Positions 10,074 to 27,619 of a DNA stretch of 64,000 nucleotides are shown here, in pieces. Position numbers and translations under genes: made by a program. The stretch is from positions 4,702,199 to 4,766,198 of the forward strand of contig NC_080713.1 of the NCBI RefSeq assembly GCF_019097595.1. Direction: 5' to 3'. Positions within the stretch are counted from its first letter, which is position 1, and each line of letters opens with the position of its first letter. Under the pieces are notes generated by a model. The model was not told the DNA's origin, searched no databases, and was given only the letters and a program-made list of their open reading frames with translations. This stretch comes from Hemibagrus wyckioides (lineage: Eukaryota > Chordata > Actinopteri > Siluriformes > Bagridae).

Positions 10074-11660
10074 TTAAGCTGACGTGCTGATCATCTTTTG
10101 GGACGAGCGTCTCCAGGACGAGCTTCGCATGCCTGTGAGTTCATTATTTTCTATGATGAAGGAAAATTTGCTCCAGGTCTGGTAGAAAAAAACAAAAAAA
10201 CATCAAAATACATAAATCAGTTCATCAAGGAAATTTTGTGACAAACATGCATAGAACACGTATTTAAAAAAAAATCTGTAACTTGCCTCAATAAAACCAA
10301 TGAAATTGATGGAAACATCTCCAGAAATGCCAAGTGTAGAAATGTTCTCTACAGGAATACGGTGTTTGAATGTGCAAAGTTCCAAGCCATTCACGTAGAC
10401 CTGTACAGACATGAGACATTAGTGGTGGACTTTTAAAGCTCTTTGAATATATTTGAACTGTATTTGTGGCAACCTGGGAAAACTCTTCACATTTTTTCTT
10501 TATATCCAGTTAGCTGTGTAAAGTTAGATTGCCTTAAACTGAAACTGAAAACTGTCTTTTGCACAAATCCCAACAAGAAGTAATGTTATAATATTACTAA
10601 AATATTACTAGTTGAAAAGATGAGTAAATTGCATTTAAATCTAGTGAGCATTTACAGATTTTCATTCCATTTTTTCAGTAAAACATCACGTTGTCTAAAA
10701 GCAATGGCATTTAATTACCAATAAATAATTATTAACTCACCAACCAACCAATCAATCTATTTAACAACCAACCAATCTAACAACCAGCCAACCAATCCAA
10801 TCAGTCAGTCAGTCAGCCAGCCAATCAACCAACCAACCAACCAACCAATCTATCAAGCAACCACCCAACCAACCAACCAATCAATCTATCAACCAACCAA
10901 CTAATCAGTCAATCATTCAATCAATCTATCAACCAATCAACCAACCAATCAATTTAACAACCAGCCAACCAATCCAATCAATCAATCAGCCAACCAATCA
11001 ATCTATCAACCAACCAACCTATCAATCAATCAATCAATCAATCAACCAACCAGTCAATCAGTCAGTCAATCTATCAAACAAGCAACCAACCAACAAATCA
11101 ACTAACCAAACAACCAACCAACCAACCAACCAACTAATCACAAATTTAATAAATTAATTTAAGGTACATACCTCATAGTGCTCAGATTTAATGACGACAA
11201 ACACATTAAAGGACGCTCCCTTGGTGAAGGGTTTGTCCGAGACAGATTCCTCAGTCTCCCAGCTACCATTTCTGAAGCTGTTTATTGCCACATGATGGCC
11301 AAGTTGGGGGTTAATGTGAAAGGCGATGTCATCACCATTAGAGTCACCTGTTTGGAAATTGATTGTAAACCTGTAAAGTAAAAAAAAAATTAATAACTTC
11401 AACTATTTGATTTATGTAAATACTAAAAATTGCATTCTAATAATCAAAAGTCATTCCAATAATCAAAAAGTGTAAATTTTTGATCATTGCTTCTTTCTAT
11501 CCTTAGCTGTGGCACAATACCAATGATTCAGTCTAACTTTTATAATAAATTATAATAAAATGGAGGCATACTCATTGGCATCTGCTGGAAGAGCCCCTTG
11601 GAACAAGATAGCCATATCTGGTCTTGCCTTTCCTGGGATCACTCCTACATAAGGAAGGAC
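10074..11660 (-). other. Galectin repeat unit 15, complete CRD with terminal exon and stop
   Basis: Exons: A 11572-11660, B 11172-11370, C 10287-10400, terminal exon 10074-10178. The site reads HINPQ and WETEES. The C exon ends at GAG followed by GCAAGT, a GC-type donor. The last exon starts TWSK, matching the NWS start of other linkers, and ends in TAA at 10074-10076. Confidence 0.75.

Positions 11661-27619: not shown

Follow-up and report, generated by a model that had tools for sequence, protein, structure and literature searches.

The minus strand of the analysed stretch of Hemibagrus wyckioides DNA (the window, 64,000 nucleotides in full) very probably carries a single gene that strings ten galectin domains into one giant protein, as judged from predicted exons and proteins. 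The best explanation of the data is that this gene, LOC131351660, lies at the fish LGALS4 locus and probably encodes a giant poly-galectin, with ten CRDs and five half-domains on one chain, that would act as a polyvalent, unconventionally secreted epithelial lectin.

The gene model was constructed from minus-strand open frames, homology to galectin blocks and splice-site inspection, and was assembled by rule. It extended from an ATG at 27619 to a TAA ending at 10074 without internal stops. The earlier note had described ten complete galectin CRDs and five half-units in one reading frame, and the independent reconstruction agreed, with 55 exons and 6,327 nt that encode 2,108 aa and a stop. The donors comprised 53 GT and one GC, at the last CRD, and the 54 acceptors were AG. 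Retention of an intron would introduce an in-frame stop in 46 of 54 cases. The median intron length was 117 bases, and the longest intron, of 1,522 bases, was located directly 5′ of linker exon 4. Scans for tRNA and Rfam families gave no matches.

Each full CRD was encoded by three exons: an A exon of phases 0-2, 89 nt long except in CRD1 (92 nt); a B exon of phases 2-0, 199 nt long except in CRD9 (184 nt); and a 114-nt C exon of phases 0-0. Linker exons of phase 0-0 separated the CRDs. As both ends of the A-B-C-linker cassette are in phase 0, the insertion or deletion of a copy leaves the frame intact, and such frame-neutral gain and loss would be the cause of the expansion. A half-unit consisted of an A exon, a short exon of 37-40 nt resembling the start of a B exon, and then a linker. 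The five half-units of the earlier note were all present, but one of them (half-unit 3, 16426-15926) had two exons rather than the three found in each of the other four, because one 163-nt exon combines its short exon with its linker.

The features are given here in their 5′ to 3′ order on the minus strand, with spans in ascending coordinates and the component exons from 5′ to 3′. A TATA-like box at 27707-27713 was situated 94 bases 5′ of the ATG in exon 1 (27530-27619; 30 aa, phase 0). The earlier mention of one TATA box is inexact, since eight more matches to a loose TATA pattern were found inside the gene; such matches also occur in its AT-rich introns. Exon 1 was followed by CRD1 (26437-27046; A 27046-26955, B 26822-26624, C 26550-26437), linker exon 1 (26207-26314), CRD2 (24902-25464; A 25464-25376, B 25297-25099, C 25015-24902), linker exon 2 (24036-24149), CRD3 (23345-23957; A 23957-23869, B 23734-23536, C 23458-23345), linker exon 3 (23125-23238), CRD4 (21847-23046; A 23046-22958, B 22241-22043, C 21960-21847) and linker exon 4 (20229-20324), which contains an in-frame ATG. 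The middle of the array comprised CRD5 (19514-20115; A 20115-20027, B 19917-19719, C 19627-19514), linker exon 5 (19293-19391), half-unit 1 (18693-19179; A 19179-19091, short exon 18960-18924, linker 18806-18693), CRD6 (17363-18443; A 18443-18355, B 18258-18060, C 17476-17363), linker exon 6 (17130-17243), half-unit 2 (16529-17015; A 17015-16927, short exon 16796-16760, linker 16642-16529), half-unit 3 (15926-16426; A 16426-16338, fused short-plus-linker exon 16088-15926), CRD7 (15159-15809; A 15809-15721, B 15555-15357, C 15272-15159), linker exon 7 (14920-15033), half-unit 4 (14319-14729; A 14729-14641, short exon 14549-14510, linker 14417-14319) and half-unit 5 (13709-14153; A 14153-14065, short exon 13935-13899, linker 13822-13709). 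The 3′ part contained CRD8 (12981-13604; A 13604-13516, B 13385-13187, C 13094-12981), linker exon 8 (12824-12898), CRD9 (12001-12689; A 12689-12601, B 12387-12204, five codons below the other B exons, C 12114-12001), linker exon 9 (11806-11895), CRD10 (10287-11660; A 11660-11572, B 11370-11172, C 10400-10287, with the GC donor) and the terminal exon with the stop codon (10074-10178).

The sugar-binding capacity of the predicted domains was assessed from hmmsearch alignments at H44, N46, R48, N61, W68, E71 and R73, the seven conserved sugar-contact residues of galectins. All seven were kept in one of the ten CRDs, six in four, five in two, four in two and three in one. The complete set was confined to CRD2, while CRD5, CRD6, CRD7 and CRD8 each kept six (R73H). 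Two residues were lost in CRD3 (R48C, R73S) and CRD10 (R48Q, R73S), three in CRD1 (R48W, E71R, R73C) and CRD4 (N46S, R48H, R73Y), and four in CRD9 (H44N, R48Q, N61S, R73L). As all seven residues occur in one CRD of ten, galactoside binding by most of the CRDs is not assured, and the proposition that all ten would bind like classical galectins is weakened by these losses. The half-units terminated 5′ of all seven contact residues and would serve as spacers at most. Near-canonical galactoside binders would be CRD2 and perhaps CRD5 to CRD8, the other beads having drifted in specificity.

The same positions were counted in the other 85 long models found in database searches, which together have 985 CRDs, counts that are inflated by isoforms. 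N61 was present in 953, W68 in 931, R48 in 792, N46 in 786, E71 in 739, H44 in 735 and R73 in 145; all seven residues were present in 108, and serine was the commonest residue at position 73 (493). If the domains were no longer lectins and the chain were a structural, scaffold-like protein of galectin folds, the scarcity of R73 and of complete sets among these isoform-inflated counts would be readily accommodated, but N61 and W68 were retained nearly throughout and H44, N46 and R48 in 735 to 792 of 985, which fits continued selection on the galactose-binding core; the scaffold reading is considered unlikely. In the predicted poly-galectins, the core that would hold galactose is largely retained, whereas the part of the site that in galectins touches the adjoining sugar varies. 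In an alignment with galectin-9 of known structure (E 3.4e-44), CRD3 was two residues shorter directly after the HxNPx motif; a short loop 4 is linked to different carbohydrate specificity in oyster galectins in the retrieved text of PMC7053492.

The identity of the gene was examined by protein searches, whose matches ruled out the idea that the databases hold nothing similar. The RefSeq H. wyckioides protein 'uncharacterized protein LOC131351660' isoform X2 (P0083; 2,093 aa) was 99% identical to the model over its whole length and equalled it minus 15 residues at the start of the half-unit 5 linker (the first 15 linker codons), a gap due to an alternative acceptor. The naming of more than one RefSeq isoform for LOC131351660 suggests transcript support. 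The Pfam check proposed with the original claim was borne out, since this near-identical protein contained ten PF00337 stretches (1047 bits). The exon 1 peptide, which by eye has no long hydrophobic stretch, was found (as SWFCSNTCF close to the start) in nine models from seven catfish species: H. wyckioides, H. guttatus (two), Ictalurus punctatus, Clarias gariepinus (two), C. magur, Pangasianodon hypophthalmus and Tachysurus ichikawai. The terminal peptide, FSFIIENNE(L/I)TGM, was common to six models from five species (H. wyckioides, C. gariepinus (two), Pangasianodon, T. ichikawai and T. fulvidraco). Models with both the first and the last exon were present in H. wyckioides, C. gariepinus, Pangasianodon and T. 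ichikawai and, together with the RefSeq model, upheld the claim of one gene with ten CRDs in one frame, although RefSeq and similar models are predictions and may fuse neighbouring genes.

By best single-CRD matches, the order of CRDs was 1-2-3-4-5-8-9-10 in Pangasianodon, 1-2-3-4-5-8-8-8-9-10 in C. gariepinus and 1-2-3-4-8-8-8-9 in Ictalurus, where the model stops before CRD10. Matched CRDs were 73-88% identical in the Pangasianodon, Ictalurus and both C. gariepinus models. The T. ichikawai model was shorter (2-3-4-5-9-10). Across these predicted catfish proteins, the ends of the array are fixed and the middle is variable. The H. guttatus models P0084 and P0086 extended beyond the end of LOC131351660 into more CRDs.

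The alternative that the locus holds several genes was weighed chiefly at linker 4. Exon 1 to CRD4 could form a four-CRD gene of its own, with a further gene beginning in linker 4, or one locus could give several shorter galectins through intronic poly(A) sites and alternative promoters. The T. fulvidraco model P0001 begins at the ATG within linker 4, the longest intron precedes that exon, and AATAAA and TATA-like sites are present inside the gene. However, the linker 4 junction was crossed by the RefSeq, Clarias, Pangasianodon and Tachysurus models, among them the T. vachellii model P0012, in which CRD1 is followed by a CRD5-like and then a CRD8-like domain, and consensus splice sites and phase were intact at linker 4. 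A search of the window with the exon 1 peptide gave a next best hit of E = 2.0, which ruled out a second start exon within the array, in line with the earlier note, which had found none between units. The first AATAAA 3′ of the stop was 755 bases away (9319), and 20 such sites were present within the gene; internal TATA-like and AATAAA sites are frequent in AT-rich DNA here, decide nothing, and were dropped as boundary evidence. Separate or shorter genes are judged improbable against a single gene.

The constraint on the repeated units was estimated as dN/dS (Nei-Gojobori) for all 45 CRD pairs and for ten half-unit pairs. The pooled dN/dS of the CRDs was 0.26, with no pair above 0.54, and dS was 0.6 or more for most pairs. 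Chance open frames as the source of the model were ruled out by this pooled ratio. The half-units (n=5) had a pooled dN/dS of 0.79; half-units 1 and 2 were identical, and half-unit 3 was poorly alignable past the A exon. For the A exon alone, pN/pS was 0.82 in the four distinct half-units versus 0.56 in nine full CRDs (CRD1 was excluded for length). The CRDs are therefore clearly constrained, and the half-units weakly at best. Half-unit motifs numbered five in the H. wyckioides model, four in T. fulvidraco, three in each H. guttatus model and two in Ictalurus, and none were found in the Clarias, Pangasianodon or T. ichikawai models searched; given this absence, the half-units are not essential. 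A reading of the locus as a tandem array in decay, in which most units resemble pseudogenes and the annotated single long gene results from frames that happen to be open, is scarcely credible, for despite the weakly constrained half-units and the contact residues gone from several CRDs, the 55 exons contain no stop, frameshift or lost splice site at a dS of 0.6 or more for most CRD pairs, the CRDs retain their low dN/dS, and the CRD order is orthologous in other catfish families.

CRD5 to CRD8 were recent copies (dS 0.10-0.15), and two stretches of about 1.05 kb (16488-17538 and 18653-19691) were 95% identical; on both grounds the middle of the array is young. The shared coding sequence of half-units 1 (19179-18693) and 2 (17015-16529) points to very recent duplication or gene conversion. 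Dispersed repeats (17663-17874 with 22520-22731, and 24275-24574 with 36858-37157; 94-96% identical) were located in the introns of CRD6 and CRD4 and before linker 2, with one copy outside the gene.

The surroundings of the single gene place it at the LGALS4 locus. The order on the same, minus strand was ryr1 exons upstream (called by an RR_TM4-6 domain at 48711-50260), an ordinary two-CRD galectin (about 39.8-33.5 kb), of whose two middle exons one is long and the other short, the poly-galectin gene, and then exon 1 of a second giant galectin. Table 1 of PMC10343441, in the portion of that paper retrieved, lists ryr1, hnrnpl, ech1, actn4 and bloc1s3 as LGALS4 neighbours; ryr1 is the neighbour looked for and found here, and the two-CRD galectin adjoining it is likely the true LGALS4. 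The first 29 residues of LOC131352419, an H. wyckioides giant galectin of 1,894 aa with 11 CRDs by the ten-CRD profile, mapped to 237-151 on the minus strand with 100% identity, so that the giant galectin genes lie in tandem. Two direct repeats of 291 bases, 100% identical, at 3807-4097 and 8245-8535, flank long plus-strand ORFs and probably belong with them to a young LTR element lying between the giant galectin genes. An open Tc1/Sleeping-Beauty-like transposase ORF of 397 codons was present at 28759-29949 on the minus strand, about 1 kb 5′ of the promoter of the gene, and a minisatellite at 31733-32553 consisted of roughly 20 copies of a 36-base unit, with one plus frame open throughout.

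The exon structure and domain scores bear on the origin of the cassette. All ten B exons (nine of 199 nt, one of 184 nt) finished right before V-x-V-N, which is the boundary in the N-CRD of the two-CRD neighbour; the middle exon of its C-CRD finished earlier, after Y-F-E. The strand-type names F4 and F3 were assigned after the retrieved text of PMC10343441, the long exon being the F4 type. The ten CRDs scored 91-127 bits against the neighbour's N-CRD and 52-78 bits against its C-CRD. According to the same part of PMC10343441, the LGALS4 N-terminal CRD gave rise by tandem duplication to mammalian LGALS7, 13, 16, 14 and 10. By exon boundaries and scores, the N-terminal half of LGALS4 is also the one copied in the predicted catfish poly-galectin; the mammalian duplicates are separate genes, whereas the catfish copies form one chain.

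The probable shape of such a chain was explored by AlphaFold prediction of a six-CRD relative, P0010 (1,039 aa, 13-sequence alignment, without half-unit motifs). Six beta-sandwich-like domains were predicted, with pLDDT mostly 70-88 (the fifth was weaker), and linkers mostly below 50. The pTM was 0.34, and the arrangement of the beads is therefore not confident. In Foldseek searches with P0010, the top matches were the two-CRD galectins 8 and 9; the single-domain matches (18 to 50 among the matches listed) were N-terminal CRDs of galectins 4, 8 and 9, with TM 0.84-0.94 by target length. Long, weak alignments to neurexin (TM 0.12-0.13) were disregarded. The proposed course is that a single mRNA would yield one chain without a signal peptide, which would leave epithelial cells by the unconventional galectin route. 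Its CRDs, as beads on flexible linkers, would cross-link glycans on mucus, microbes or cell surfaces by avidity. The mucosal role is proposed by analogy with other fish galectins: in the retrieved parts of the respective papers, one- and two-CRD fish galectins agglutinate bacteria (PMC7796122), and channel catfish is reported in a review to have twelve galectin genes, the majority expressed at high levels in mucosal tissues (PMC6100423).

The distribution of long models was assessed in three protein searches that returned 132 proteins, in which CRDs of at least 100 residues were counted with a profile of the ten CRDs. At least five CRDs were present in 86 of the 132 (85 by a slightly stricter model-column count). 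The largest models were Anguilla rostrata LOC135235715 (31 CRDs, 4,815 aa), one from Gymnothorax javanicus (30) and Neoarius graeffei LOC132887734 (29; 5,094 aa); others were Astyanax lgals4 (22) and Danio si:dkey-151j17.4 (15). The valency of the H. wyckioides protein, which had been called unprecedented, is exceeded among these related predictions. By source name, the long models came from catfishes, carps and their relatives, characins and eels, and none from other teleosts were noticed among the 132 proteins, the searches needing shared five-residue words. Given this need and the 21 long rows from common carp alone, neither the taxon absence nor the count of 86 is firm, and the latter fact also means that the number of genes is much smaller than the number of rows. 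Many fish proteins annotated as toxin-like, seen in the same searches, pair a galectin domain of the poly-galectin type with other domains. In the open-access literature no galectin with more than four CRDs was found among the matches listed. The class is thus already in the databases as predictions and undescribed in the open literature within this scope.

Vertebrate galectins are generally described with one or two CRDs, which cross-link through dimers or paired CRDs. A wider reading, offered tentatively and with less than even confidence, is that otophysans and eels possess an undescribed giant class of about 5 to 31 CRDs that arose at the LGALS4 locus from its N-CRD, in which the frame-neutral cassettes allow CRD number to change fast in the middle and positions 48, 71 and 73 diversify from bead to bead, so that a single chain would have many specificities. 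Such a protein would be a heteropolyvalent mucosal agglutinin, possibly variable in copy number between individuals, and would amount to a germline lectin repertoire on one chain. If true, a protein with ten to thirty CRDs on a single chain would achieve avidity at mucosal surfaces in a different way, which is of relevance to aquaculture fishes and to zebrafish, whose related gene is open to knockout. Domain gain and loss could also be followed cleanly in the frame-neutral cassette.

Among known and predicted systems, the catfish counterparts (Ictalurus LOC108264058, Clarias gariepinus Hap1MRO34_003470 and Pangasianodon 'lgals4') share an orthologous CRD order and the same first exon with LOC131351660 and differ from it in the counts of middle CRDs and half-units; like it, they are predicted and uncharacterised. 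The giants of Otophysi and eels resemble the gene in having many PF00337 domains in one predicted chain, but differ in unit counts and first exons, the likeness being one of domain content. Galectin-4 (LGALS4) and galectins 8 and 9 share the CRD fold and the N-terminal-CRD exon plan, and LGALS4 also the ryr1 neighbourhood. These proteins have two CRDs, the second with a shorter F3-type middle exon, whereas the poly-galectin has ten CRDs and none of the F3 type, which sets it apart from tandem-repeat galectins. Oyster CvGal1 and CvGal2 (retrieved text of PMC7053492) and lamprey LOC116947959 (retrieved text of PMC10343441) have more than two tandem CRDs per chain, like the poly-galectin, but are described there with four only, and the lamprey protein mixes F4 and F3 exon types.
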